Positions 3,539 to 63,748 of a stretch of 64,000 nt of DNA are shown piece after piece. Below the pieces are notes generated by a model. It made no database searches. It had not been told where the DNA came from and saw nothing but the letters and a program-made list of their open reading frames with translations. Location of the stretch: NCBI GenBank assembly GCA_947631625.1, contig CANRMA010000002.1:62001-126000 (forward strand), written 5' to 3'. The position numbers and the translations under genes were made by a program. Source of the DNA: an uncultured Lachnospiraceae bacterium. GTDB taxonomy: Bacteria; Bacillota; Clostridia; Lachnospirales; Lachnospiraceae. Position 1 is the first letter of the stretch. The number at the start of each line of letters is the position of its first letter.

Positions 3539-3763
3539 ATAAATTTAATAGGTAATTGCGAAACTCCGATTTACGTCTTTGAGATTGTGCAGATTTAACA
3601 AACACCATTGCAGGTGCTCTGAGCCCGCCGGTTCTTAGGCTGCGTATTTTGCAGCCTTAGCACCGTTGCGAGGCTCAACGCAGCGAAAGCGACCTGCAAG
3701 GGTTTTGTTAAATCTGTACAATCAATGTACATTGTGGGAGCGTTTCGCAATCTATAAATTTAA
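3539..3763. mobile_element. MITE-like element, copy A1, with flanking duplication
   Basis: A ~205-bp non-coding element (about 3549-3753). Its ends are inverted repeats, GGTAATTGCGAAAC on the left and GTTTCGCAAT on the right, with nested internal palindromes (ACAGATTTAACAAA / TTTTGTTAAATCTGT and GGCTGCGTATTTTGCAGCC). It is flanked by the direct repeat ATAAATTTAA at 3539-3548 and 3754-3763, as expected of a target-site duplication. Related copies lie near 12.3, 32.5 and 41.0 kb. It separates DUF1540 from the infC promoter. Confidence 0.75.
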
Positions 3764-12321: not shown

Positions 12322-12569
12322 AATATATATAAAAGATATTTACGAAACTCTCTTTAAACGTATATTGATTGTATAGATTTAACAAACACCTATGCAGGCG
12401 CTCTGAGCCCGCAGCGCAAAGAATTTGCGCTTGTTATAAGGCTGCGTATTTTGCAGCCTTAGCACCGTTGCGAGGCTCAACGCAGCGAAAGCGGCCTGCA
12501 AGGGTTTTGTTAAATCTGTACAATCTCAAAGACGTAAATCAGCGTTTCACAATTACCTGATATATATAG
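12322..12569. mobile_element. MITE-like element, copy A2
   Basis: The element spans about 12334-12559. It has a degenerate left end (AGATATTTACGAAAC), a good right end (GTTTCACAATTACCTG) and the internal palindromes shared with copies A1 and A3, plus an extra hairpin (GCGCAAAGAATTTGCGC). Flanking AT-rich direct repeats (ATATATATA) resemble a target-site duplication. It fills most of the 550-bp gap between degV and the chemoreceptor gene. An AT-rich stretch at 12120-12320 holds nothing recognisable. Confidence 0.7.
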
Positions 12570-40976: not shown

Positions 40977-41209
40977 GGTCAATATTATAGGTAATTGTGA
41001 AACACTATACCAACGTATATTGATTGTGCAGATTTAACAAACACCATTGCAGGCGCTCTGAGCCCACCGGTAGTTAGGCTGCGTATTTTGCAGCCTTAGT
41101 ACCGCTGTGAGGCTCAATGCAACGCAAGTGTGCCTGCAAAGGTTTTGTTAAATTTGTACAATCTCGATAACATATTTCATAGTTTCACAATTGCCCGGGT
41201 CAATATTAT
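40977..41209. mobile_element. MITE-like element, copy A3, with 12-bp target duplication
   Basis: The element spans about 40989-41197, with ends AGGTAATTGTGAAAC and GTTTCACAATTGCCC and the family core. It is flanked by perfect 12-bp direct repeats, GGTCAATATTAT at 40977-40988 and 41198-41209. This is the clearest evidence of transposition in the window. It lies between an extended -10 box (TATGGTATAAT, ~40924-40934) and the esterase gene. Confidence 0.85.
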
Positions 41210-50158: not shown

Positions 50159-50193
50159 GTATCCGGCAGGTAAGATTGCCGGATGCTTTTTTT
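50159..50193 (+). terminator. Second terminator abutting the left inverted repeat
   Basis: ATCCGGCA (50161-50168) and TGCCGGAT (50177-50184) followed by GC and seven T (50187-50193). The last three T are part of the inverted repeat. It insulates the switch from upstream transcription. Confidence 0.85.
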
Positions 50194-50219
50194 CGCAGAT
50201 TGCGCGCGTCTGCGAAAAG
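50191..50219. repeat. Left inverted repeat / recombinase core site (IRL)
   Basis: A 29-bp sequence whose exact reverse complement lies at 51655-51683. It is itself a core-site-like palindrome, TTTCGCAGA (50191-50199) and TCTGCGAAA (50209-50217), around an asymmetric 9-bp centre TTGCGCGCG. This is the design of a tyrosine recombinase crossover site. Confidence 0.9.
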
Positions 50220-50261
50220 AACTTTCGATACCCGCATGTCAATCATGAATAAACCATACTT

Positions 50262-50290
50262 AGTATAGCATTGTTTTTTTGATATTACAA
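50262..50290 (-). promoter_or_regulatory. Outward-facing promoter inside the invertible segment
   Basis: On the minus strand TTGTAA (50285-50290), a 17-bp spacer and TATACT (50262-50267), pointing left out of the segment through IRL. After inversion it would read rightward into the genes from 51833 with a ~215-nt leader. Confidence 0.6.
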
Positions 50291-50474
50291 CAGTTTTTTA
50301 CCGGATTTTATTCACATATTATTCAGATTTATGTAAATTATTTCTCAAATAACCACACGGAAAACGTGATAAAACAAAAGAACAGTCAAAATTTTTGGAT
50401 CTTACAAAATAATAAATTCTTTTATGGTCAGATATGTGGTCAGAAATCATTGAAAAAAACGGAGGATCGATCGA

Positions 50475-51623
50475 ATGGGAAGACATGGCGAAAATATAAG
50501 GAAACGCAGTGACGGGCGTTGGGAGGCGCGCTATATGGCATATGATGAGGGAAAGGGAGGTAAGATCTGCCGTTCCGTATATGGGCATACGTATGAAGAA
50601 GCAAAGGCAAAACGCGCCGCAGCTTCAGGAATGTCTGCGTTCTTGATCAAAACGGGAAATGTTTCGGCGCAGGATGCGGACGGGCTGCAGGGCATTGCTT
50701 TTGGAACGGCGGCGCTGGAATGGCTGGCCGCCGTGAGATCGGAGCATAAACAGTCCACCTTTGAGAAATATAACTTTATTTATCATAATTATCTTGAAAC
50801 TCCGTTCAGCGGCATCATGCTTTGGCAGGTTACGGAAAAGATCGTCCGGGACAGGCTTGCATCCTGCGGGGCAGCATCGGAGAGCCTGCAGAAAAGCATC
50901 TATGGCGTGCTGAACGGGATCCTGCGTTATGCGGCGGGCCGCTATCATGCGACGCTTCCGGAAATAAAAAGACCGTCCGTGAAGGCGCAAAGGAAAGAAG
51001 CGGGAACGTTTACCAGATCCGAGCAGACAAAGCTTCTGTCGGTCCTCTGCGCCAACACGGACCGTTTCAAACTGGGAGTGCTGTTATGCCTTTTTACGGG
51101 CCTGCGTCTTGGAGAATTATGCGCCCTGAAATGGACGGACATTGATTTTGCAAATAAGACACTCTCCATAAAAAGGACCGTTCAGAGACTTTATGCAGAG
51201 GACGCCGGCACAAAGACGGCTTTGATGGAAACTTCTCCCAAAAGCGGCAATTCAAAACGCGAGATCCCGCTGCAGGACGCCATGATCGCGCTGCTTTCGG
51301 ATCACCGGAACGGGAAAGCATATGTATTCGGCGGCGATAAGCCGCTTGATCCGAGGACCATGCAGAACCGTTACAAAAAGATCTTAAAAGAAGCGGGCGT
51401 GTCCTATAAAAATTTCCACACCCTGCGCCATACATATGCCACAAACCATATCGAAGGCGGGACGGACATAAAATCATTGAGCGAGATGCTGGGGCATTCC
51501 AGTGTAAAGATCACCCTGAATTATTATGCGCATCCGTCCATGGACACAAAGCGCATGTATGCGGACGACCTGTGCAGATTTTATGCCCGGCTTCATGGTC
51601 AGGTTGCGGGTAGGGCCGGTTAA
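50475..51623 (+). CDS. Tyrosine recombinase enclosed by inverted repeats
   Basis: A 382-residue site-specific recombinase. Residues ~1-60 form an arm-type DNA-binding domain (IRKRSDGRWEARYMAYDEGK), ~75-165 a SAM-like core-binding domain, and ~175-370 the catalytic domain. Active-site residues are Arg in TGLRLGELCALKW, His and Arg in NFHTLRHTYAT, His in LGHSSVKIT and the nucleophile Tyr in LNYYAHPSM. A CGGAGG site precedes ATG 50475. No phage or conjugative genes are nearby, while perfect inverted core-like sites flank it, so its likely job is inverting its own segment. Confidence 0.92.
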   Translation: MGRHGENIRKRSDGRWEARYMAYDEGKGGKICRSVYGHTYEEAKAKRAAASGMSAFLIKTGNVSAQDADGLQGIAFGTAALEWLAAVRSEHKQSTFEKYNFIYHNYLETPFSGIMLWQVTEKIVRDRLASCGAASESLQKSIYGVLNGILRYAAGRYHATLPEIKRPSVKAQRKEAGTFTRSEQTKLLSVLCANTDRFKLGVLLCLFTGLRLGELCALKWTDIDFANKTLSIKRTVQRLYAEDAGTKTALMETSPKSGNSKREIPLQDAMIALLSDHRNGKAYVFGGDKPLDPRTMQNRYKKILKEAGVSYKNFHTLRHTYATNHIEGGTDIKSLSEMLGHSSVKITLNYYAHPSMDTKRMYADDLCRFYARLHGQVAGRAG

Positions 51624-51654
51624 GAGATCCTGTAATAATGAGGGATCGCAGGGC

Positions 51655-51683
51655 CTTTTCGCAGACGCGCGCAATCTGCGAAA
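51655..51683. repeat. Right inverted repeat / recombinase core site (IRR)
   Basis: Exact reverse complement of 50191-50219: arms TTTCGCAGA (51657-51665) and TCTGCGAAA (51675-51683), centre CGCGCGCAA. It lies 31 bp after the recombinase stop and 149 bp before the next start codon. Confidence 0.9.
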
Positions 51684-51832
51684 GATATTTTCGGCCGGGT
51701 CTGCTTTTCCGGTGAAGACGTTCCAAAGAAAAGCCGCACAGTTATCATTATCGGCGTGACGGGCCGTTTTATCAAGAATGCGCATAAGAAAACAGAGATG
51801 ACATTTGCCTGTTGTCGGGAGATGGGAACAGT

Positions 51833-53194
51833 ATGAGAAAAAAACAGAAGCGGGAGATATTGGAGATCCTGCATACGCTTGCCGCGGCGCATGAGGCGGT
51901 GAAAGTCTCCGCTGACAGGGGAGACATCCGGGAAGCCCGTGACGTCCTGACACAATGCCAGCAGGCCGCCGTCGCAGTGGGCGCCAGCATTGAGCAGACC
52001 GAGGGCGAGGGGCATACAGCGGTCTCATGCCTTGAAGGATACTGCGAGACGCTGTTCCGCATATATGAGTCATTGGAGTCGGGCGGCTGCAGCGCAAATA
52101 AGGCATGCCGGATGCTGCAAAAACAGCTTGTAAAAATCGAGAACATTGTAAAAAATGACATAAGTGTCAGAAAAGAAGCCGTTTTCTTCCCGTACAAGGC
52201 AAGCATGTGGGATTCACTGGAAAGCGTGTATCTGGCATTGAAGGAAGATCCGGGATATGACGCTTACTGCGTGCCGATCCCGTATTTTGAGCTGAACCCC
52301 GATCACAGTTTCGGGGAGATGCGCTATGAAGGGGATCAGTATCCCAAAGGCATAGAAGTCACTGACTGGCAGGGATATGGATTTGAAGAAAGGATGCCGG
52401 ATGAGATCTATATCCATAACGGATATGACGAGTGCAACCTTGTCACAAGCGTCCACCCGCGCTTTTATTCAAGCAACCTGAAAAAATATACGGACATGCT
52501 TGTGTATATCCCCTATTTTGTCCTGGGTGAGATCGAGCCTGACGATCAGGCGGCGGTCGACTCCATGAAGCATTTCATATGGGTGCCGGGCGTTATTTAT
52601 GCGGATAAGGTGATCGTCCAGTCTGAAAAGATGAAGCAGATCTATGTGAACGAATACATAAAGGCGGCAAAAGAAAGCGGCCTGAGGGGCGAGCATCTGG
52701 ACAGGAGATATCTGGAACGGAAGATCAGCGGCGCGGGTTCGCCGAAACTGGAACGGGCGCGGCGTATCAGGAAAGAAGAACTTGACATACCGCAGGAATG
52801 GCGGAAGATCATACAAAAACCTGACGGCGCGGACAAAAAGATCATTTTTTATAACACGAGCATAAATGCGCTCCTGGAGCACGGGGATAAGATGCTGGAG
52901 AAAATGGAACGCGCCTTTGCGATATTTAAGGAGCACAAAGATGACGTGGCGCTTCTGTGGCGTCCCCATCCGCTGATCCCGTCAACGATCCGGGCCATGC
53001 GCCCGCAGCTCTGGGCGGGATACGTAAGGATCGTTGAGAGATACATACGGGAAGGCTGGGGCATTTATGATGACAGCGCGGACATTGACCGCGCGGTGGT
53101 ATTGAGCGACGCCTATTACGGCGACGGGAGCAGCGTCGTGCAGTTGTGCAGGGAGCGCGGGATGCCGGTCATGATACAGAATGTGGATGTATGA
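51833..53194 (+). CDS. CDP-glycerol glycerophosphotransferase-like protein, first gene of surface-glycan locus
   Basis: A 453-residue protein. The N-terminal ~110 residues are helical (REILEILHTLAAAHEAVKVS). The rest resembles the TagB/TagF (PF04464-type) fold: VFFPYKASMWDSLESVYLAL, PDEIYIHNGYDECN, VHPRFYSSNLKKYTDMLVYI, LLWRPHPLIPSTIRAM and the terminal LSDAYYGDGSSVVQLCRERG, equivalent to the nucleotide-contact TDYSS region. It could transfer a polyol phosphate or a related group; the reaction is unproven. ATG 51833 has a weak GGGAGA site. It is the first gene past the invertible segment and GC-richer than the later glycan genes. Confidence 0.7.
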   Translation: MRKKQKREILEILHTLAAAHEAVKVSADRGDIREARDVLTQCQQAAVAVGASIEQTEGEGHTAVSCLEGYCETLFRIYESLESGGCSANKACRMLQKQLVKIENIVKNDISVRKEAVFFPYKASMWDSLESVYLALKEDPGYDAYCVPIPYFELNPDHSFGEMRYEGDQYPKGIEVTDWQGYGFEERMPDEIYIHNGYDECNLVTSVHPRFYSSNLKKYTDMLVYIPYFVLGEIEPDDQAAVDSMKHFIWVPGVIYADKVIVQSEKMKQIYVNEYIKAAKESGLRGEHLDRRYLERKISGAGSPKLERARRIRKEELDIPQEWRKIIQKPDGADKKIIFYNTSINALLEHGDKMLEKMERAFAIFKEHKDDVALLWRPHPLIPSTIRAMRPQLWAGYVRIVERYIREGWGIYDDSADIDRAVVLSDAYYGDGSSVVQLCRERGMPVMIQNVDV

Positions 53195-53222: not shown

Positions 53223-54650
53223 ATGAAGACAGATGAGATCATTACCAAAACAGCCGCGCTCTACAGCGGGCCGCTGCCGGATGAGACGATGGAGTCCCTC
53301 CGGGGGATCGCCCGGGACTACTGCAAGGTAAAAAATTATGTGTACGGGCGCTATTCCGGCGTTGCAAACGTAAACCGTCTGACGCCAGTATATACCGTTT
53401 TAAACGAGATGCGGCACTGCGGGCTCAGACAGCAGCTCGGTCTGCCGGCGGTGTATTATGAACTCGCCGTTTCCGAGGCGGTCGGAGATATCAAAGGCAT
53501 GTGGGGCGTCCTCAGGAACAGGCTCCGTGAGCTGATAAGTGAAAATGAGAATCTAAGCGTAGAAGACCGGCTGTATCTTAGGACCGTTTTGAAAATAAAC
53601 AGCGTGTTTGCGGCGGTATTGAACCGTCAGGAGTATGAAATGCCTGACAAGGCAAAAGATATGGAGCTTGATGTCAAAAGGCTGAACAACCTGCTCTGCA
53701 GGTTGGTAAGACGGCATCTGAAGACTCCGTCGCAGCAAAAAAACGACTTTTTTACAGTGTCTACAAACGGATACAGGTCGGATGAGAAGGGACTGTATCT
53801 GACAGGCCGGACGCCGCGCAGACGCATCTTTATCCCCGTCAAAGGGATCGGGGGAGCGGACAGACAGCTTAGGATCATCCTCCGGGAAAACAGCGTAAGG
53901 ATTACGTTTCCGGTTGATGCGGCGGCAAGAAAACGGGAGGATTACACCAATACGGTCTATGCATATATCGGTTACGGAGACATGCTGACGCTTTCCAACG
54001 GAAACGTATACGGAAAGGGGCTTGGCAGCCTGGTCACTCCGGAGACGGAGCGGCTTTCGGAGAAAAATAACGAGCGCGGCAGGATCTATGCCGCATACCG
54101 TAAGAAGGCCGGACGATATAAAACGGCAGAAGAAAGGAACATTGAAAGACCTGCGGGAAATGATTTTGCCGCAGCAAAAGAAACGCCGGACGAGAGTTTA
54201 AAAAAGAGACTGGAAGAAAACAACCTGGGAAGGAAAAAATACGATGAACAGAAACGCCGGGCGAGGGAAAAGACGCAGAATTTCATCAATGCGGAATTAA
54301 ACCGCATGTTCCGCGAGGAAAAGCCTGAAAGGATCGTGATCACAAGACCCGTAACGAAGGACCGGGCAAAAAATCATTCCAAAGCGTTCAACAGGAAAAC
54401 GTCAAGAAACTTCCGCGGTTATATCCGGGATCAGATCGCATTTAAATGCCGTCTGAATGCGGTGGAAATGACAGAGATCAGTTCCAAAGGAACGGGGAGC
54501 ATATGTTCAAACTGCGGAAACGAGGGAAAGCGCGTGAAAGAAGGATTTATCTGTGAGGCCTGCGGATACCGCAGTTCAACAGCGGTCAATTCAGCCAGGA
54601 ATATAGAGAGAATTGCAAAGACCGGGGGAATGAAACATAGGACGGAGTGA
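53223..54650 (+). CDS. TnpB/Cas12-like protein with all three RuvC catalytic acids replaced
   Basis: A 475-residue TnpB-family protein. The N-terminal helical part (ARDYCKVKNYVYGRYSG, QLGLPAVYYELAVSEAVGDI) and beta part (RRRIFIPVKGIGGADRQLRI) correspond to the REC/WED lobes. In the RuvC region the Asp of the usual GxDxG motif is Tyr248 (YAYIGYGDMLTLSNG), the Glu of the IVxEDL motif is Thr374 (RIVITRPVTKD), and the late Asp of DxNAAxNI is Ala454 (STAVNSARNIE). The zinc ribbon Cys428/431/444/447 is intact. It should bind guide RNA and DNA but not cut. No TnpA and no transposon ends are visible, so it may be a domesticated regulator. An acquired but simply decayed gene is less likely because the frame is open and conserved-looking. 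Confidence 0.8.
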   Translation: MKTDEIITKTAALYSGPLPDETMESLRGIARDYCKVKNYVYGRYSGVANVNRLTPVYTVLNEMRHCGLRQQLGLPAVYYELAVSEAVGDIKGMWGVLRNRLRELISENENLSVEDRLYLRTVLKINSVFAAVLNRQEYEMPDKAKDMELDVKRLNNLLCRLVRRHLKTPSQQKNDFFTVSTNGYRSDEKGLYLTGRTPRRRIFIPVKGIGGADRQLRIILRENSVRITFPVDAAARKREDYTNTVYAYIGYGDMLTLSNGNVYGKGLGSLVTPETERLSEKNNERGRIYAAYRKKAGRYKTAEERNIERPAGNDFAAAKETPDESLKKRLEENNLGRKKYDEQKRRAREKTQNFINAELNRMFREEKPERIVITRPVTKDRAKNHSKAFNRKTSRNFRGYIRDQIAFKCRLNAVEMTEISSKGTGSICSNCGNEGKRVKEGFICEACGYRSSTAVNSARNIERIAKTGGMKHRTE

Positions 54651-55020
54651 AAAGCGCCTTGGGAGATAATTATGGAATAGATAAAAATGAGATAGAAAAT
54701 GAAGAAAATCCATGTCGTGGTGAAAATACCGTGGAATCATGAAAAAGCAAAGTTGGGAAGAAATGAGATAAAACTGCATGCCCTGAGAATGAACGGGAGA
54801 ACCGTTTGAACGGCCGGGCCGTATCGCAGGAAACAGCGTTTATGATATAAGCGGATGGGAAACTGTCCGGACGGCGTTATCAGGGATCTTCGAGATCCTG
54901 CTTGTACGCCAGGACCGCGGCTTTATGCGGAGCGAACTGCGTCAAAGGTGTGAAGGATGCCTTTTGCGCGGAGGCGGGATAGCCAAGCTAATTCTTATGA
55001 TGATGGAAAAGAAATATTTA
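54651..55020 (+). ncRNA. GC-rich structured non-coding stretch, candidate guide RNA of the TnpB-like protein
   Basis: About 370 bp without a plausible gene directly after the TnpB-like stop, the position of omega/guide RNAs in TnpB loci. It holds nested hairpins: GGCGT...ACGCC enclosing a stem of nine-base arm CAGGGATCT and AGATCCTG around TCG (~54868-54914), then CCGC/GCGG, and CCGTT-TG-AACGG. Its high GC ends abruptly near 54990. Boundaries, strand and guide segment are not determined. Confidence 0.45.
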
Positions 55021-55078: not shown

Positions 55079-56176
55079 ATGGCTATAAAAAATACGGATT
55101 CACTAAATTTCGAAGCTGTAGTGAAGTGGAGTGACGAGATTGCATATGCAGCAAGTAGTGAATATAATGCGCTTTTTAAAGTTTTTCTATCAAGTGGAGA
55201 TACTGAATATCTCCAGATGTTTCCAGATGAGAAACCAAATGGTGTAAGACTATTTACAATGGCTGTTAGTTATGGTGGAAAAATATATTTTGTTCCAGCA
55301 TCGGCGAATCATATTGCGGTATATGAGCCTGATAAAAATAATTTATATAATCTGCAGATAGAAGCAATAGACCGAGGCAAAGATCCTTATTACAAAATAA
55401 ATGCAAAGTTTAATGGTGGCATGGTTATTGGTAAGTATATATATATGACACCATGTACTTATCCCGGATTTATAAGGATAAATTCTGATAATGATACTAT
55501 AGAGTATTACAGTGATTGGGTTGGTGATGGAAATTATGTGTTTAGGAAAGTACCATTGCTAGATGAAAACATGATTTACCTGCCAAGTACGATTAATAAT
55601 AGGATTCTTAAAATTGATACAAATACTTGTAACGGACAGCTGTTTAGTATAGGCGCCACAAAAGGTGGTTGGTGGAGTATGTGTAAGCAATGCGATAACT
55701 ATTGGTTCGCACCACAGATTCCGGGACCAATAGTTAGATGGGATACAAAGAAAAATACTTTTAAAGAATTTGACAATTATCCTGATGGTTTTGATGGTAG
55801 GGATTTTTATTTTACAAAAATTTTTCAACATGGTAATCAAATTGTATTAATACCAGCAAAAGCTAATATGGGTATTATTTTGAACGTTGAAACTGGAGAT
55901 ATGACACCATTGTTTTTGACAAAATACAATAAAGAATCGGTGACAAGAATATGTTTTGAAATGGATAAATGTGTTTATTTAAGTGTCTCAAAAGGAAGTG
56001 AAGTACAGTATGTAAAATTAAACATTAAGGATTTGTCCATGGAAAGTTTTGCATTTAGATGTTCAAAAAATATAGATAAGTTGAACCATGATATTTTATT
56101 AAATTTTATGAAGATAAAAACTGCTATAAAAGAAAAAAGATATTTTTATCTGAATGATTTTTTAATGGGGTTGTAA
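55079..56176 (+). CDS. Beta-propeller-like protein of the glycan cluster
   Basis: A 365-residue soluble protein built of repeated strand blocks: MAVSYGGKIYFVPASANHIA, GGMVIGKYIYMTPCTYPGFI, DENMIYLPSTINNRILKIDT, NYWFAPQIPGPIVRWDTKKN and HGNQIVLIPAKANMGIILNV. The pattern (Y/I)(Y/W)F.P.....I...D recurs about six times, suggesting a six- or seven-bladed propeller. No signal peptide is visible. Such domains in glycosylation loci may be binding platforms. GGAGA precedes the ATG. It begins the AT-rich part of the cluster. Confidence 0.6.
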   Translation: MAIKNTDSLNFEAVVKWSDEIAYAASSEYNALFKVFLSSGDTEYLQMFPDEKPNGVRLFTMAVSYGGKIYFVPASANHIAVYEPDKNNLYNLQIEAIDRGKDPYYKINAKFNGGMVIGKYIYMTPCTYPGFIRINSDNDTIEYYSDWVGDGNYVFRKVPLLDENMIYLPSTINNRILKIDTNTCNGQLFSIGATKGGWWSMCKQCDNYWFAPQIPGPIVRWDTKKNTFKEFDNYPDGFDGRDFYFTKIFQHGNQIVLIPAKANMGIILNVETGDMTPLFLTKYNKESVTRICFEMDKCVYLSVSKGSEVQYVKLNIKDLSMESFAFRCSKNIDKLNHDILLNFMKIKTAIKEKRYFYLNDFLMGL

Positions 56177-56186
56177 AGAAATTTTT

Positions 56187-57683
56187 ATGATTTTAAGAGT
56201 TGGCCTGCCTAAAAGAATTACTATAGAGAAATTAAACAGATGTGGGGGAAAATATGATATCTGTTGTATAGGGTGTGGTAAACGGTTGCATGAGATGCTA
56301 AAGACATATCAAGATGAGCCTTTTATCTTGAAAATTACGCATTTCATAGATAATAATGAAAAACTTTGGGGACAAAAGATTAGCATTGGAAATAAGAATT
56401 TTAATATTGAAAACAAGGAAATCTTAAATGAAGATAATGGAAAGAAGAAGCTTCTTTTGATTACATCTGATGCAGTTTTTTCAATATATCAATCGATTAA
56501 AAGAGAAATCTGTGCAAATAAGGATTTGTGTTATGTATATCCCTGTTTTTACAGAAATACAACGCCGATGCTTTTAAAACTGTTATCCGGTTTTATAAAT
56601 AATAGAAGGCTTTTATTTTATGCGGGAACTGAACCGCACGAAAATGCTGATGCAATAGTGGAATATTTATATCAGGAATATCATGGTAAGAAATTCAAGC
56701 TTGTTTATTTGGGTGATTCGTCTGAAAAAACAAAAAATAATGTTATACAAATAGATAAGTCTTCGGTGCAAAAGAAAACCCCCATAAAAGAAGTGTTTAG
56801 ATATTGCTATTATTATGCCACATCTAAATATTTGTTTTATGAGAATGAAGCATTGAATAAAGTTTGTGACAGACAGATTTTGATTTATCTAAATCACGGA
56901 ACGATTCCCTTAAAGCAGGTGAGCGATGTCCTTAAGCAGCCGGAAGAACTTAGCTATGGTGTTTGTCCATCAGAGGGGTGCGCTGATATATATACGGAAC
57001 AGTACGGCATACCCAAAACAAAGCTGCTATATATGATGCCGGCGCGTGTGAATTATTTGTTTCGGGACAATGTAACAGTTCCGTGGAAAAAACCTGAAGA
57101 GAAGTTGATATTATGGCTTCCGACATTTCGTCAATTGGAAGGCTCGATACGGAAGGATTCTGTTGAAGAAAATCCTTTGGAGTTGATTCGTACTGATCGG
57201 GAATGGCTAATGTTGGATAAGCTGTTAAATAATACAAAGCAGAGATTGGTAATAAAAAAACATCCCAGAGAAAAAATAGAATTTTCTATATTAAGTTATT
57301 GCACTAACATTAATATCATAACAGAAAACGACCTGAAAAATAGCGGTCTGCTGTTGCATCAAGTGTTGGCTCAAACTGATGCATTGATCACGGATTATTC
57401 CGGAATTGCTTTTGAGTTTATGTTGTTAAACAGACCTATAGGTTATGTTGTAAGTGATATGCAGGAATATATAAGAGGATTTGCAGTTGAAAACCCGTTG
57501 GATTATATGCCGGGTACTAAGATAAATAGTCTGAATGAAATGCTTATGTATATAAGTGATGTATCTGAGTCTGTTGACATATACAAGACAGAACGTGCTG
57601 AATTAGTTAAGAAATTATTTCAAAGTAGGGCTTATAAAAATGGTGCCAAAGAATTAATAGAATACATAGAAAGGAAAATATAA
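56187..57683 (+). CDS. CDP-glycerol glycerophosphotransferase family protein (TagB/TagF-like)
   Basis: A 498-residue peripheral membrane-type transferase. The N-terminal third resembles a nucleotide-binding fold (YDICCIGCGKRLHEML). The C-terminal GT-B-like half has the diagnostic segments YLNHGTIPLKQV, KLILWLPTFRQLEGS, RLVIKKHPRE and TDALITDYSGIAFEFMLLNR (CDP-glycerol contact). It likely adds glycerol phosphate to a wall or capsule glycan, using CDP-glycerol from the enzyme at 63750. It starts 10 bp after the propeller gene. Confidence 0.87.
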   Translation: MILRVGLPKRITIEKLNRCGGKYDICCIGCGKRLHEMLKTYQDEPFILKITHFIDNNEKLWGQKISIGNKNFNIENKEILNEDNGKKKLLLITSDAVFSIYQSIKREICANKDLCYVYPCFYRNTTPMLLKLLSGFINNRRLLFYAGTEPHENADAIVEYLYQEYHGKKFKLVYLGDSSEKTKNNVIQIDKSSVQKKTPIKEVFRYCYYYATSKYLFYENEALNKVCDRQILIYLNHGTIPLKQVSDVLKQPEELSYGVCPSEGCADIYTEQYGIPKTKLLYMMPARVNYLFRDNVTVPWKKPEEKLILWLPTFRQLEGSIRKDSVEENPLELIRTDREWLMLDKLLNNTKQRLVIKKHPREKIEFSILSYCTNINIITENDLKNSGLLLHQVLAQTDALITDYSGIAFEFMLLNRPIGYVVSDMQEYIRGFAVENPLDYMPGTKINSLNEMLMYISDVSESVDIYKTERAELVKKLFQSRAYKNGAKELIEYIERKI

Positions 57684-58640
57684 ATGGAGAGCTATATTAG
57701 GCATGCTCTGAAGTATTTAACAAAAGAATACAAGGATTTTGTTATATATCCATATGGTAAGTACGGTAAGCTGACAAAGCAAATTTTAAATGAAGAATAT
57801 GGTATTAAAGAAAATTATGTTGTTGATAATAATGTTCCTGTTGGTAATTATAATTTAGACGATGGTGGGAGTTATGAACTGCGAGATATCGCATACATGC
57901 GGGAAGACTATCAAAACAGAAATTTTCAGATATTGTTGGCAGTAGACCCTGCAAGGTGGAACACATCATTAGCTGTACATAGAGAGATTGATTTCGCAGA
58001 TATATCGCGCGTATCTGATATACTCAGTCGATCAACATTCTTTTGTCCATGGAATCATTTTGAGAAGGTAAGAACGCTTGATTGGCCTAAAATTTCATTG
58101 ATAGAGTGTGCTTCAAGAGAAATCTACAAAAATAATATCATTGGAGCGGTTGCTGAAGCCGGTGTGTTTCAGGGACAGACGGCAAGATTTATAAATTGCT
58201 TTTTTCCGGACAGAAAATTATATTTGTTTGATACCTTTGAAGGTTTTAATGAAAAAGATCAAATTCTGGATGATGATATGAATTTACATAATGAGAAATT
58301 GGATTTCACGGATACCTCGGTGGAATATGTGATGAGCAGAATGCATTATCCTAAGAATGTTATTATTAAGAAAGGATGGTTTCCGGAGTCCGCCCAAGAC
58401 GTTGATGACAGGTTCGCTTTTGTGCGGTTGGATATGGATCTGTATTCTCCTATATATAGTGGATTAGAGTTTTTTTATCCGAGAATGGCTAATGGTGGAT
58501 ACATAATAGTACATGATTGCAGGAGTAAAAATTTTGATGGAGCAAGAGCGGCATTAATCGATTTTTGTAAAAAATATAGTCTGGGCTATATGTGTGCGTC
58601 TGACAATCTGGGTAGCGCAATAATCTGTGTAGGTATGTAA
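57684..58640 (+). CDS. TylF/MycF-type SAM-dependent O-methyltransferase with N-terminal domain
   Basis: A 318-residue protein. Residues ~1-110 form a small nucleotide-fold domain (YPYGKYGKLTKQILNEEYGI) of the kind repeated in this cluster. The rest is TylF-like: VAEAGVFQGQTARFINCFFP (SAM motif), LYLFDTFEGFNEKD, VIIKKGWFPESAQDV, FVRLDMDLYSP (metal-binding Asp pair) and GGYIIVHDC. It likely methylates a sugar hydroxyl of the glycan. ATG 57684 directly follows the previous stop with an AAAGGAAA site. Confidence 0.85.
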   Translation: MESYIRHALKYLTKEYKDFVIYPYGKYGKLTKQILNEEYGIKENYVVDNNVPVGNYNLDDGGSYELRDIAYMREDYQNRNFQILLAVDPARWNTSLAVHREIDFADISRVSDILSRSTFFCPWNHFEKVRTLDWPKISLIECASREIYKNNIIGAVAEAGVFQGQTARFINCFFPDRKLYLFDTFEGFNEKDQILDDDMNLHNEKLDFTDTSVEYVMSRMHYPKNVIIKKGWFPESAQDVDDRFAFVRLDMDLYSPIYSGLEFFYPRMANGGYIIVHDCRSKNFDGARAALIDFCKKYSLGYMCASDNLGSAIICVGM

Positions 58641-58669
58641 GTGTAAAAGAAGAAAGGCAAAATATAGTT

Positions 58670-59810
58670 ATGTATATTAAGAAATATATTTTAGAAGAAG
58701 TAAGAAAGGATTTTGAGTCTATTGAGATGGCAAAAAGGCTTTGGATCTACGGGTACAGTAATCTTGGACGTAATGCCTTTAATAAACTGCATAGTATATG
58801 GCCGGAGAAAACACAAGGTATTATTGTTACGGAGAATGGTAAGAGGTCTTTGAGGTCAAATAAAAGTATTATAGAAATCGAGAAGGCTGATATAAGCAAT
58901 AGCGTTATTGTGATTGCAACAAATCCGTTATTTCATAGCGATATTATACATATGCTAAAGGAAAAACATGAAAATTACAGTGTGTATATATATGATGAAG
59001 TATTGGATGATTGGTTGAATGATAAATTAAAGCAAATTCCGTTGCTCGAAACAAAATTTCTGAGTGTATGTGTGGGACAGGCATGTAATTATAAATGTAA
59101 AGACTGTGCAAATTTTGCGCCTTTTGCCAAAAGAGAAAATTTACGATACGAAATAGATGCCATCAAAAAGGATTTGAAAAATATCATGCCGTATTTTTCT
59201 ATTATAGATACACTGCATATTCAGGGAGGTGAACCTTTTGTTTATTCAGATCTGTCGATGTTGATAGAGTATATTGGGGGGGGGGTATGGTAACAAAGTA
59301 AAAAATATCCAAATTGCTACAAATGGGTCTATAGTACCTTCAAAAGAAACCCTTGAAGCGTTGAGCAAAGAAAAGTGTACAGTTCGTATATCTGATTATA
59401 AAAAGGAAAATACGGAAAAAGTTCTGGTAGATAAACTTGAAGAATATGGAATTAAATATAAAAAGTATGATTTTGCAGGAATGAAAGGTGAATGGAATGA
59501 CAGCGGCGGAATGGATTATGTTAGTCCGGTTAATGAAGATATTTTTAGCAAGGTTTTAGAGTGTAGTTGGTGTATGTGCTATACAATGGAAAACGGTATA
59601 ATAGGGCGCTGCGCGCGAAGTATTCCGGCGCGGAGTCTGCAGAATATAGATATAAAAAGGGAAGATTATATAAATGTAAGAGAGCCAATAGATATAGTTG
59701 AAGTTTCTAAATATTTCATGTTTATTCATCCCATGGAAAGTTGTAAACATTGTAAGGGTTCTAATGGAGAACCAATTAAAGCAGCCGTTCAGATTGGTGA
59801 AGAGGAATGA
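58670..59810 (+). CDS. Radical SAM protein, reading frame broken at a G10 tract (phase-off)
   Basis: Two overlapping frames make one radical SAM enzyme of ~379 residues. The first ~120 residues are a nucleotide-fold domain (LWIYGYSNLGRNAFNKLHSI). The 4Fe-4S motif is CNYKCKDCANF (CxxxCxxC), followed by HIQGGEPFVYSDLSMLIEY and a Cys-rich C-terminus with additional cluster-type ligands (CSWCMCYT, CKHCKG). The frame breaks at ten G (59276-59285): ten G lead to TAA three codons later. Nine G would read IGGGYGNKVKNIQIATNGS and continue to 59810. It probably modifies the glycan or its donor. Confidence 0.82.
59276..59285. repeat. Poly-G tract (G10) in coding sequence
   Basis: Ten consecutive G inside the radical SAM gene. 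Loss of one G, or gain of two, restores the full frame. No other G run this long was noticed in the window. Confidence 0.9.
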
Positions 59811-59847
59811 TTAAAAAACACGGTTTTAGTACGGAGGAATGACAATA

Positions 59848-61482
59848 GTGTTTTCGAGGATATTATGTGAAGAATTACATAAGTATGATATGGCTATAAT
59901 ATATGGATTTGCTGATATTGGGACATGCTTGCTCGATTATATAATTGACATTGAAACCAGTATAAAAATAGCTAATTATTCAGGTAAAGTGAAGTATTTT
60001 GCCACTTCGAATCAAATAAGAGAATCACTACGAAGTGAGGTTAAAGGGATAAAAATAAAGTATATAGGTGATTTGATTAATTATAAAAATAAAGCATTGA
60101 TCATTATTGCGACGCAGGAAAAGCATCATCGTGATATATCGAAAACATTAGATGAATTTGGCTTTGAAAACAGGTTATATGTCAAGCATGAAGATTATTG
60201 TGAAATAAGAGAAAATATAGAAAATCATAAAGCAATTATTAACTCTAGAATTGGGCAGTACCATATTAATCATCAAATTAAGCTTGACAGACTCAGACGA
60301 AAGATTGAAAAAGGGAAGAAAGCAAAAGTTTTCTTTATGACACATGATTCGGCAGTGTTTGGAGCAGCATCAGTATATAGAAGCATGGAACAAAATCCAA
60401 TTTTTGAACCGTATATTTATGTGATTTCTCGCAGAGATGTAACTTACAAAAATTATATGGAAGATGTTAGGCGTGATGTCGAATTTTTTTCTAATAATAA
60501 ATATAAAGTAATATGCGGATATGATGAATACGGGAATCCTGTAGATATTCACCGATATAACCCGGATATACTCTTTTTTGATTTACCTAAATTGCATGGT
60601 AATGGCAGTTCATTTTATAACAGACTGGATTATTTGAATTGGGAATATCTCACATGTTACATACCGTATGGAATGAATATGATAGATTCATTTTATTATC
60701 ATTATCATTTAGACGCTATTAGAGAAACATGGAAATATTTTGTTGATACACAAAGTGATTACAAAAGAGTTTTAAAAGATGGTGATTTTAATGGATTCAA
60801 TATGGTTATGTCGGGGTATCCAAAGTATGACGATTATTACTCTGAGTATATAAAAATTCCTGAAAAAATCAATAATGATAAACCATTGGTAATATATGCG
60901 CCACATCATTCATTGGGTGGCGTGAGCAATAATCTTGCGACGTTTGATCTTTATGGTGGCTTGATTTTGGATTTTGTTAAACAGAATCCTAATATTAATT
61001 TTGTTTTTAAACCGCACCCGCTTTTATATTTTCAAATACGAAACCGCTATAATGAAGGGAAAATTAATATCTCTCAATCGGATTATGATAATTATCTTAA
61101 AGAATGGTCTAATCAATCTAATGCAATAGTAATTTCAGAAGGAAATTATATTGGATTATTTAGAAAAAGTATGTGTATGATTACAGATTGTGGTTCATTT
61201 ATAGGTGAATATTTTCCTTCACTAAATCCATGTATTTACATATTTAATCCAAGAAAAGAACAACAAATGGAATGCTATACACCTTTAGCTAGGAAAATAT
61301 TAGATACATACTATATCACTAAATCAAAAGAGGCGCTTGAAGAAATGTTTCAAGAAATAGTAATAAAGAAAAATGATATAAAGTTTGAAAAAAGAAAACG
61401 GCTTCTTGATGAAGAGTTTCACAATATCGGAAGAGCTGGTCAATATATATGTGATTATTTGGAAAGGGAATTGGTGGATTGA
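59848..61482 (+). CDS. CDP-glycerol/polyol-phosphate transferase-like protein
   Basis: About 544 residues. The N-terminal ~120 residues form a nucleotide-fold domain (YDMAIIYGFADIGTCLLDYI) similar to those of its neighbours. The rest resembles TagB/TagF enzymes: KVFFMTHDSAVFGAASVYRS, VMSGYPKYDDYY, LVIYAPHHSLGGV, NFVFKPHPLLYF and MCMITDCGSFIGEYFPSLNP (nucleotide-binding TD.GSF). Likely a second glycerophosphate-type transferase. A GTG at 59848 has GGAGGA nine bases upstream; the ATG at 59839 touches that site and is less likely. Overlaps the next gene by one base. Confidence 0.75.
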   Translation: MFSRILCEELHKYDMAIIYGFADIGTCLLDYIIDIETSIKIANYSGKVKYFATSNQIRESLRSEVKGIKIKYIGDLINYKNKALIIIATQEKHHRDISKTLDEFGFENRLYVKHEDYCEIRENIENHKAIINSRIGQYHINHQIKLDRLRRKIEKGKKAKVFFMTHDSAVFGAASVYRSMEQNPIFEPYIYVISRRDVTYKNYMEDVRRDVEFFSNNKYKVICGYDEYGNPVDIHRYNPDILFFDLPKLHGNGSSFYNRLDYLNWEYLTCYIPYGMNMIDSFYYHYHLDAIRETWKYFVDTQSDYKRVLKDGDFNGFNMVMSGYPKYDDYYSEYIKIPEKINNDKPLVIYAPHHSLGGVSNNLATFDLYGGLILDFVKQNPNINFVFKPHPLLYFQIRNRYNEGKINISQSDYDNYLKEWSNQSNAIVISEGNYIGLFRKSMCMITDCGSFIGEYFPSLNPCIYIFNPRKEQQMECYTPLARKILDTYYITKSKEALEEMFQEIVIKKNDIKFEKRKRLLDEEFHNIGRAGQYICDYLERELVD

Positions 61483-62531
61483 TGGAGGATTTGAGATATT
61501 GTGCATCTAGCTATTTAATGTTTAGGTATATATTTCATGAAGAAAAGCTCTTTAAAGATAATGTTCCAATCAATATTATTAGCTTGGCTTTTGATAGAAA
61601 ACCGGTAAAAACAGCTGATGATCTTATAGAAATTTTAGATATGGTTATAAAAGAGTCTGTATCTAAAGGGAAAACAGTATTAGCGTTGAGTGGTGGAATT
61701 GATTCAGCTATATTAGCGCGATTGATGCCTAAAGGCGCGAAGGCGTATACATTCCGGTGTGTTGTTCCGGGAAAAGGGGTAATCGACGAATCCAAGCAGG
61801 CCTCTATTTGGGCAGAAAGCAACGGACTACATCATGAAATTATAGACATTAGATGGGAAGATATAGAGGCTGTTGCAGATAAATTAATGCTACATAAAGG
61901 AGCTCCAATTCATTCTATAGAGGCTCAGATTTATATTGCTTCTTGTAAAGCAAAAGAGGATGGCGCTGAAAGATTTGTATTCGGTGAAAATGCAGATATT
62001 ATATATGGAGGTATGAACGGATTGCTTCAGAAAGATTGGCACTTTGGAGAATTTGTAGATAGATATATGTATGTCAATCCATATTATGTGTTAAAAGACC
62101 CGGAATTAATTTTGCAACCATTTAAAGAATTTGAAAAAGATGGTTATATAGACGGTCATGATTTTATCAATCAGTATTTTAGACAGGAGGCGTTAGGTAC
62201 ATATAATAATGCGTGTCAAACTGCTGGGATAGAATTTGTAGGACCGTATTCATTAACTTATCTTGATTCACCTATTGACTATAGTCGGATAAGATCCGGA
62301 GATACGAAGTATATAATTCGAGAAGCTTTTAAAAAGTTATATCCAAAGATGGAGATGCCAGCTAAAATACCAATGCCGAGGCCTGTAAATGAATGGTTTA
62401 AAAATTGGAAAGGGCCTCAAAGGGACGAGTTTATACCTCATTGTACAGATGATATGTCAGGAGACCAAAAATGGATGGTTTGGTCATTAGAGCGATTCTT
62501 AAACCTGATAGAAAGGCAGGAGATGATATGA
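61482..62531 (+). CDS. Asparagine synthetase-like ATP-pyrophosphatase domain protein
   Basis: A 349-residue protein with the PP-loop LALSGGIDSAILARLM and a following FVFGENADIIYGGMNG, matching the synthetase half of AsnB. The N-terminal glutamine amidotransferase domain is absent; only ~55 short residues precede the PP-loop. It probably adenylates a carboxylate and transfers an amine, forming an amide on a glycan or its precursor, as amidation enzymes in polysaccharide loci do. TGATG overlap with the previous gene and ATGA overlap with the next show tight coupling. Confidence 0.82.
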   Translation: MEDLRYCASSYLMFRYIFHEEKLFKDNVPINIISLAFDRKPVKTADDLIEILDMVIKESVSKGKTVLALSGGIDSAILARLMPKGAKAYTFRCVVPGKGVIDESKQASIWAESNGLHHEIIDIRWEDIEAVADKLMLHKGAPIHSIEAQIYIASCKAKEDGAERFVFGENADIIYGGMNGLLQKDWHFGEFVDRYMYVNPYYVLKDPELILQPFKEFEKDGYIDGHDFINQYFRQEALGTYNNACQTAGIEFVGPYSLTYLDSPIDYSRIRSGDTKYIIREAFKKLYPKMEMPAKIPMPRPVNEWFKNWKGPQRDEFIPHCTDDMSGDQKWMVWSLERFLNLIERQEMI

Positions 62532-63748
62532 GTAGAGTAGCGATTGAATATGCTGATAACTATAGGTTAGAGACAATAAAAGAAGCATTGCGAAAATGTT
62601 TTGTAAATCTCGGAATGCAGGAGGAAAATCCTTTCGGTGAAATTATAAAACCGGGCAACAAAGTTTTTATAAAGCCCAATTGGGTGGCATCCAGATGGAG
62701 AGCATCATGCCAACATAAAGACTCTTTATATTGCGTGATAACACATCCTGCGGTTATAGAGGCGGTTGCTGATTTTGTTGATGAAGCGTTGCGGGGTGAT
62801 GGTGAGATTATTATAGGTGACAATCCTTCAATAGATGCAGATTTTCAGGAATTAATGGAATTTACTGAAATAAAGAAATTGGAGTCAAAATATAGTGTAA
62901 AAACTAAAATACTGGATTTAAGACCATTAGTTTGCGATGATTTGAATAACTACGGAAAAAAGAATTTAATGGTATCTCAGTTAGGAGATCCTTTCGGTAC
63001 GGTTGAAGTTAATTTAGGAAAGGATTCATTGTTATATGGAATTGATCCTGCAAGATTTAGAGGAGTATTTGATGAAAGAGATGAAACCATAGCCTCTCAT
63101 ATGGGAGAAACGCAGCTATATACTTTTGCCAGAAGTTTATATGATGCAGATGTATATATTTCAATACCTAAAATGAAAACACATCAGAAGGTCGGGGTTA
63201 CACTTAATTTAAAAGGGTTGGTTGGCACCATATCTAATAAAAATCAATTGGTTCATTGGCAAGTAGGTTATCCTGAAATACGGGGAGATGAGTATCCGAC
63301 TAAGGAAGCCTGGGAGGCAGGACAGGTAGCTAATGTAAAACATCGAGGCGCATGGCCGGGCAATGACACCATATGGAGAATGGTGGTTGATTTATATAAA
63401 GCAATGCTTAGGAAAGAGAGAAAATATTTTTCGGTAGTGGACGGTATAGTTGGAGGAGAAGGTCAGGGACCGTTCTGCCCTACAAGTAAGTATGCCAATA
63501 CAGTGATAGTTGGAGATAATTTGTTAAATGTTGATCTTGTGACTGCAAGATATATGGGTTTCGATCCGTTAAAAATCAAGTATCTTGAATATTTTGTAAA
63601 AACCTTGGATGAAGATATTATGAATGAACTTCAAATTATAAAAAACGGATATGTAGTAGATGATTATTTTGGCGCAGCTTCTTCATATGCAGATTTTGCT
63701 GTTGTAGAGCAGTGGAACATAATAAAACATACATATATGGAGGATTAA
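62528..63748 (+). CDS. DUF362 domain protein
   Basis: A 406-residue protein of the DUF362 family: GNKVFIKPNWVASRWRA, ITHPAVIEAVADFVDEAL, EIIIGDNPSIDADF, YISIPKMKTHQKVGVTLNLK and VVDGIVGGEGQGP are the usual landmarks. The frequent C-terminal ferredoxin domain is missing. DUF362 proteins lie in anaerobe genomes near Fe-S and glycan genes; the reaction is unknown. ATG 62528 (site AGGAGA) overlaps the previous stop; an in-frame start at 62471 inside the upstream gene is rejected. Confidence 0.82.
   Translation: MSRVAIEYADNYRLETIKEALRKCFVNLGMQEENPFGEIIKPGNKVFIKPNWVASRWRASCQHKDSLYCVITHPAVIEAVADFVDEALRGDGEIIIGDNPSIDADFQELMEFTEIKKLESKYSVKTKILDLRPLVCDDLNNYGKKNLMVSQLGDPFGTVEVNLGKDSLLYGIDPARFRGVFDERDETIASHMGETQLYTFARSLYDADVYISIPKMKTHQKVGVTLNLKGLVGTISNKNQLVHWQVGYPEIRGDEYPTKEAWEAGQVANVKHRGAWPGNDTIWRMVVDLYKAMLRKERKYFSVVDGIVGGEGQGPFCPTSKYANTVIVGDNLLNVDLVTARYMGFDPLKIKYLEYFVKTLDEDIMNELQIIKNGYVVDDYFGAASSYADFAVVEQWNIIKHTYMED

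Follow-up and report, generated by a model that had tools for sequence, protein, structure and literature searches.

A nuclease-dead TnpB family with a structured RNA at switchable surface-glycan operons of Lachnospiraceae: a possible domesticated regulator

The window, which is the whole stretch of 64,000 nucleotides that was analysed, comes from an uncultured Lachnospiraceae bacterium and carries a gene for a TnpB homologue between a recombinase-bearing segment and a run of glycan genes. The features of the locus are the following.

50161..50184, minus strand: terminator-like hairpin outside the switch (a consensus match; the hairpin count of the region is not above shuffles)
50191..50237, plus strand: left inverted repeat, 87% identical to the right arm over 47 bp, of the same site type as in relatives
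50192-50216, plus strand: core recombination site TTCGCAGATTGCGCGCGTCTGCGAA, within the left inverted repeat
50262..50290, minus strand: promoter-like site within the invertible segment, facing outward: TTGTAA-17-TATACT, with a TG ahead of the -10
50475..51623, plus strand: tyrosine recombinase (Phage_integrase, Pfam PF00589, 5.9e-28), the presumed invertase
51638..51683, minus strand: right inverted repeat, with the core site at 51658-51682
51812..53194, plus strand: 460-aa glycan-type gene; the first glycan gene of locus L050 (852 aa) is homologous to it in its N-terminal half, with 39% identity over 452 aligned columns
53223..54650, plus strand: nuclease-dead TnpB, 475 aa (489 aa from an upstream ATG at 53181)
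54770..54870, plus strand: probable 5' domain of the RNA, placed by eye where upstream sequence is conserved among relatives, and lying outside the covariance model
54871..55001, plus strand: structured RNA core with stems P1, P2 and P4 (the P3 hairpin is lost in the clade of the window)
54985..55010, plus strand: RNA 3' tail CTAATTCTTATGATGATG, the right end of a duplicated cassette, where the 98.8% identity between copies stops
55079..63748, plus strand: downstream glycan and surface genes, those scanned including Glyphos_transf, TylF methyltransferase, radical SAM-like, Asn_synthase and DUF362 products

The frame for TnpB is uninterrupted from 53223, or from the ATG at 53181, to 54650, as the initial annotation had it for the 475-residue form. 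The protein matches the Pfam family Cas12f1-like_TNB at 4.5e-9 and, weakly, the NCBIfam family guided_TnpB (29.9 bits, the cut-off being 100). The kinship with TnpB claimed at the outset also appears in predicted structure: the AlphaFold2 model (mean pLDDT 79.6, pTM 0.56) matches AsCas12f (8j3r) at E 2.6e-11 and, at E 1.5e-9 with a TM-score of 0.61 on the target, the TnpB-omegaRNA-DNA complex 8h1j, which is of ISDra2 TnpB; ISFba1 TnpB (8iaz) and ISDra2 TnpB in 8exa match as well. The residues at the three RuvC catalytic positions are Tyr248, Thr374 and Ala454, the very replacements of the acids that had been read from the motifs, and in 101 aligned family rows no Asp or Glu occurs at any of these columns; the zinc ribbon, described earlier as intact, keeps Cys428, 431, 444 and 447 in all 101. 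These rows are not all distinct loci, as some contigs occur twice, and a few are truncated; L108 was omitted for 25 stops within its match, and one in-match stop was skipped in the row of L073. The outgroup TnpB controls are acidic at the same columns, the active-type L223 with Asp at 248 and 454 and L222 with Glu at 374, and HMMER aligns the last-motif Asp of CnCas12f1 and AsCas12f to Ala454. L016 and L225, whose frames had been taken wrongly, do not enter these comparisons, and loci present under two names were removed from some of the counts given below. This family lacks the active D-E-D RuvC nuclease of IS200/IS605 or IS607 TnpB and has the loss of RuvC acids that marks TldR proteins.

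The dN/dS of tnpB is 0.129 against L057 and 0.111 against L059, two related MAG loci, and 0.259 against the second copy in its own genome. An inner stop is absent from 76 of 80 matches, and two of the remaining four have the stop at the frame end only. With no acids at the catalytic columns, four cysteines kept and a low dN/dS, the residue losses are, judged from these alignments, a selected trait of the whole family and not a local accident. The selected, non-cutting binding role proposed in the initial annotation finds support in this family-wide loss, in the kept fold and ribbon, in the low dN/dS and in the co-occurring RNA described below. Six ORFs between 49126 and 57683 were scanned, and they contain no TnpA transposase and no transposase domain except that of TnpB; the sole recombinase is of the Phage_integrase family. 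A separate observation concerns L222 (genome G410, of the same genus), which is a different, second TnpB of 387 aa that scores 231.8 bits to guided_TnpB, above the cut-off; its RuvC-I column reads His and its RuvC-III column Asn, the RuvC-II Glu being kept, and it is possibly another dead TnpB.

A conserved noncoding element lies 3' of tnpB in the relatives, and its core in the window fits covariance model R1 at E 6.4e-12, the window being part of the training set. When arms were swapped between RNAs, pairing fell from 4.83 to 4.60 for P1 and from 3.60 to 2.93 for P4, and none of 2000 swaps reached the observed pairing (77 of 79 distinct RNAs were usable). Fifty RNAs outside the training set had 97.0% of cells paired, with 84 double-change cells as opposed to 17.8 in shuffles. 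The covariation score was 0.309 versus 0.114 in shuffles and at most 0.082 in slid controls, where the partner is moved by 1-3 columns and the RNA signal is destroyed; the alignment was structure-fitted and is thereby favoured over its slid versions. RNAalifold on the raw MAFFT alignment gave 8 pairs only, because the 3' stems were misaligned, and a manual structure was used in its place; the last two stems, P5 and P6, were seen by eye. Searches of the window stretch and of three relatives gave no Rfam match for the RNA. Pairing of the tail with the 5' domain, in the manner of the ISFba1 pseudoknot, was considered and rejected, since own tails scored 7.53 and swapped tails 7.34 in RNA class A (sd 0.16; best swap 7.64), and 6.44 and 6.52 in class B, with no covariation in either class; pairing of the tail with the 5' box RTCATAAGA was rejected likewise (own 4.96, swapped 4.99). 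In L083 (from 3667) and L087 (1802-1938) the last RNA hairpin and the tail seem, by eye, to be tandemly repeated.

The covariance model was built from 15 sequences, which match by construction, and it matches 94 of the 98 sources (these include L038, which is without TnpB), the weakest at E 0.089. The RNA lies beside 94 of the 97 TnpB loci of the main search (79 of 82 outside the training set) and beside tnpB in 8 of 9 further loci, among which L097, L100, L131 and the miss, L101, repeat contigs of the main search. A match is lacking at three TnpB loci: L034, which holds a TnpB fragment; the locus of genome G283 that is named both L041 and L101; and L091, which reaches E 0.03 in a smaller search. 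An RNA encoded beside the gene, a further TldR feature, is present.

Genome G283 has a single intact TnpB without adjacent RNA and four RNAs elsewhere. One of these (L213) lies beside a broken TnpB, and the other three have no TnpB in stretches of 14-19.5 kb, although in L215 the contig extends only 1.2 kb upstream of the RNA. Each of the three follows a fully complementary inverted-repeat pair, with arms of 22-26 nt that are 101-111 nt apart, and each is followed by glycan-type genes. These orphan RNAs, from one genome, are the best hint that the RNA may belong to the operon and that TnpB may act on it in trans. Elsewhere, in genome G367, a decayed cassette with recombinase and TnpB remnants and a good RNA match was seen beside gltBD-type genes (L211, 7830-9012).

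A recombinase switch and wall-glycan genes had been named as the neighbours of tnpB, and both are there. In the window the promoter-like site is directed away from tnpB (OFF) and inversion would direct it to tnpB; the call is a consensus match in a region where the promoter count is not above shuffles. A perfect TTGACA-17-TATAAT occurs at the equivalent place in L045, L047 and L050. The recombinase is spanned by an inverted-repeat pair, 1.37-1.47 kb apart, in 13 of 13 first-set loci (the window and its copy counting as two), and the arms hold sites of the form TTTCGCAGATT-N6/7-ATCTGCGAAA. If both near-identical copies of the own genome are counted separately, tnpB and the recombinase gene adjoin in 25 loci. 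Once twice-fetched contigs were removed, the recombinase was on the strand of tnpB in 18 and on the opposite strand in 7 of 25, so both switch states occur between genomes, in a comparison between loci and not within one strain. Where flank sufficed, an inverted-repeat pair was found upstream of tnpB in 42 of 62 loci, compared with 2 of 62 in the downstream control, the window and L057 being scored as misses because an extra gene shifts the switch beyond range. The anatomy of an invertible promoter switch is present, with inverted sites around a promoter and an adjoining site-specific recombinase. Some loci have a short inverted-repeat segment without a nearby recombinase, or another site type, and retain TnpB and RNA. 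In L042, L043, L212, L214 and L215 the short segment is a different one of about 145-165 bp, with arms around TTGCAAAA or TTCTCAAAAA that are identical in L212 and L215. TGGTCA direct repeats, possible arm-type sites, lie near the recombinase start in the window (about 50421-50446) and also at the 3' end of recombinase genes in relatives, and the recombinase has a weak AP2-like N-terminal match.

The glycan genes next to tnpB in the window are of teichoic-acid type. The 460-aa gene at 51812..53194 has no Pfam match; together with 55079-56176 it flanks the TnpB-RNA unit, and the two correspond to the N- and C-terminal parts of the 852-aa L050 protein (39% and 23% identity). The own genome holds a second TnpB copy at 97% protein identity, and the whole segment 50180-55010 (recombinase, 460-aa gene, TnpB and RNA) recurs at 98.8% identity over 4.85 kb on another contig. 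The identity stops directly after the RNA tail, and the second cassette is followed by different genes (nucleotidyltransferase/kinase, SIS, radical SAM/SPASM and cytidylyltransferase). Across the loci, 258 of 268 of the first four ORFs downstream are on the tnpB strand, versus 149 of 192 upstream. The commonest downstream families (98 of 138 proteins scanned; counts from the best 25 of 68 families) are Gfo/Idh/MocA (9), cytidylyltransferase (8) and CDP-glycerol glycerophosphotransferase (6), followed by DegT (4), nucleotidyltransferase (4) and polysaccharide synthesis (3), while the upstream controls (76 of 100; best 25 of 139 families) gave ABC, HAD and some glycosyltransferases and epimerases. 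In six first-set loci the next genes encode a small membrane protein and a secreted protein, and the one such pair scanned has no Pfam match. The RNA is at some loci separated from the next gene start by hundreds of bases. Elsewhere in the window we noted a 395-bp direct duplication (28419-28813/28864-29258, 96%), and at 3539-3723, 12323-12525 and 40981-41163 there are dispersed, partly self-complementary repeats of about 200 bp.

A wider scan gave 266 relatives, of which 80 were kept; these come mostly from Lachnospiraceae MAGs and isolates, three being of Selenomonas or Veillonellaceae type and one of Chitinispirillia. The nearest are from samples named Lapin. TnpB and RNA are both carried by the commensal strains Schaedlerella arabinosiphila DSM 106076 (L126) and Sporofaciens musculi WCA-9-b2 (L136). 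Among the 397 genomes of a family-level sample, 17 gave a TnpB match at E up to 1e-20. The RNA, at E up to 1e-6, is present in 18, which include all 17 TnpB genomes; the eighteenth, with no TnpB match, is 59% complete. As the RNA model was trained on RNAs of these genomes, the informative result is the lack of an RNA match in 379 of the 380 TnpB-negative genomes. Few candidates were scored per genome in these searches, so copy numbers are lower bounds. Carriage by phages or plasmids was considered and set aside: the window protein gave three weak Thermus phage matches, the L050 protein one weak Thermus plasmid match, and IMG/VR two relatives, from which the family is mainly chromosomal.

TldR proteins are established as TnpB-like, nuclease-dead repressors (PMC13418256). 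The csrA-TldR loci of Oscillibacter and Flavonifractor, as far as that source describes them, carry hin and show inversions of promoter segments of about 120 bp, and their guides cross-target fliC ORFs (PMC13418256). They share a general plan with the family of the window: a TnpB-derived, nuclease-dead protein with an RNA beside its gene, several loci per genome, an upstream recombinase with promoter inversion, and a surface structure as the regulated trait (PMC13418256). The two differ in recombinase type, which is tyrosine recombinase here and hin there, in the regulated genes, which are glycan/teichoic-type and secreted surface-protein operons here and fliC there, in the placement of the RNA as an operon leader, in the presence of orphan RNA copies, and in that no guide or target was identified here. 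The novelty of the context, which the initial annotation had suggested, holds in part: the glycan setting and the present TnpB-RNA-glycan family were not found in print in the open-licence literature searched, but a hin-inverted promoter with a TldR at flagellin genes of gut Clostridia is already published (PMC13418256). In IS607 elements the reRNA is wholly downstream of tnpB, and ISFba1 TnpB, which has a RAGATH-18 reRNA, shares this arrangement and a similar fold (8iaz) with our family; it is, unlike our family, an active nuclease with a 20-nt guide (PMC11061315). Its RAGATH-18 reRNA differs from the RNA described here, which is without an Rfam match in the window stretch and three relatives. 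Nuclease-dead or non-cutting RNPs of Cas12f and Cas12m (PDB 9n9c, 8hio) share the fold and binding without double-strand cutting, and Cas12m is a CRISPR effector according to the source consulted (PMC10442227). The capsule loci of Bacteroides also combine an invertible promoter, an early regulatory gene and glycan genes, in several loci per genome. There the early products are UpxY and UpxZ, a NusG-type antiterminator and its inhibitor, and the family of the window has TnpB and a structured RNA instead.

The evidence suggests that a former transposon protein may now help to control the appearance of the cell surface. We think it quite possible, if a little short of an even chance, that this nuclease-dead TnpB family has been domesticated and regulates phase-variable surface operons by binding RNA. 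Directly supported elements of such a scheme are the fold, the acid loss, the selection, the RNA structure, the co-occurrence, the switch anatomy and the orphan RNAs. To hypothesize from these, inversion of the recombinase-bearing segment would turn the outward promoter to tnpB, and the resulting transcript would comprise tnpB, the structured RNA and the glycan genes. Dead TnpB would bind the structured RNA, which is probably derived from an omegaRNA and would now be a leader element of each operon, and the RNP at the leader would set transcription or translation into the glycan genes, either positively (in an antitermination-like way) or negatively. The observations in one genome suggest that TnpB might also be supplied in trans to RNA-only operons. 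More specifically, and only tentatively, we propose that a TnpB guide RNA has turned into a cis-acting operon leader with a fixed tail, its target search being lost, and that dead TnpB has become a leader-binding factor for phase-variable glycan operons, shared in trans with RNA-only operons. Transposon ancestry would likewise place the RNA downstream of tnpB, since the reRNA of IS607 is located in this way (PMC11061315).

The same evidence fits a cis leader and a fixed guide acting in trans alike, and a TldR-like repressor has to be weighed, although we judge it rather unlikely. The constant 3' tail would then be a fixed guide, and the RNP would bind boxes in its own and in sister operons, resulting in feedback or mutual exclusion of surface types. 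The tail is situated at what we take to be the place of the guide in an omegaRNA, by IS605 right-end logic. Published csrA-TldRs behind hin-inverted promoters do cross-target several fliC ORFs (PMC13418256). Tail-like boxes AAAGTWTATRTRYYTTATTW, which the leader model leaves unexplained, occur 3' of the RNA in 10 of 54 loci with at least 17 of the 20 positions matching, a level reached by none of 100 shuffles of each, as well as in L136 (20/20) and in L101 (18/20), a TnpB locus without RNA. However, nine of the ten loci had been inspected before the consensus was drawn, which makes the test circular for them, the independent ones being L125 and, later, L136 only; the boxes fit their own tails at 10.8 and swapped tails at 11.4, so that no specificity for the own tail was seen. 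A conserved chromosomal target of the tail is not indicated by the searches either, with 66 matches in 10 genomes, the RNAs themselves included, against 60 for the reversed-pattern control. The own genome (81% complete) has a mild excess, with 15 matches at up to two mismatches (two of them the RNAs) against 8 in the control and no exact non-self site, and the sequence after the tail, tried as a guide in that 81% complete genome, gave only self matches at up to one mismatch. Matches inside the first glycan gene track the conserved peptide VYIPY, where codon choice is weakly biased (CCT in 18 of 61 versus 18% across genes as a whole); the 12 of 27 counted by eye in RNA class A is not trusted, because the loci are related. 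No guide target was found in a surface-gene promoter or ORF by these searches, which may have missed short or wobble-tolerant guides. Given an RNA 3' end that hardly varies within any clade, and no convincing non-self match in the 81% complete own genome, the TldR-like guided repression raised in the initial annotation is possible only. With no target and no own-tail preference of the boxes, the tail may be a fixed guide, a part of the scaffold or a nucleic-acid site in its own right. As a recurrent element, the box was noted downstream of the RNA or tnpB in L098, L099, L103, L105, L115, L125, L128, L132, L136, L214, L215, L043 and L101; it is tail-like with a different 5' flank, and L103 and L105 have two copies.

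It seems improbable that the RNP acts on the recombinase switch, by inversion bias or on its promoter, and not on the operon: tnpB does adjoin the recombinase in 25 loci, but TnpB with RNA, or RNA alone, is kept at loci without such a recombinase or with another site type. A functionless passenger or decaying transposon remnant, for which the decayed copies L211 and L213 would speak, is highly improbable in view of the dN/dS of 0.11-0.13 against related MAGs, the covarying RNA, the 76 of 80 matches without inner stop and the conserved gene order.

How gut bacteria are perceived by phages, immune cells and neighbouring bacteria is shaped by their surface glycans, and to our knowledge little is known about the control of these glycans in Lachnospiraceae. 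If the leader reading is true, TnpB would be expected to pull down the structured RNA of every locus, including the loci without tnpB, and if a transposon-derived RNP stands atop these operons, glycans would join flagellin as a second kind of surface trait under a dead TnpB. The family may then also illustrate the conversion of a guide RNA into an ordinary regulatory leader.
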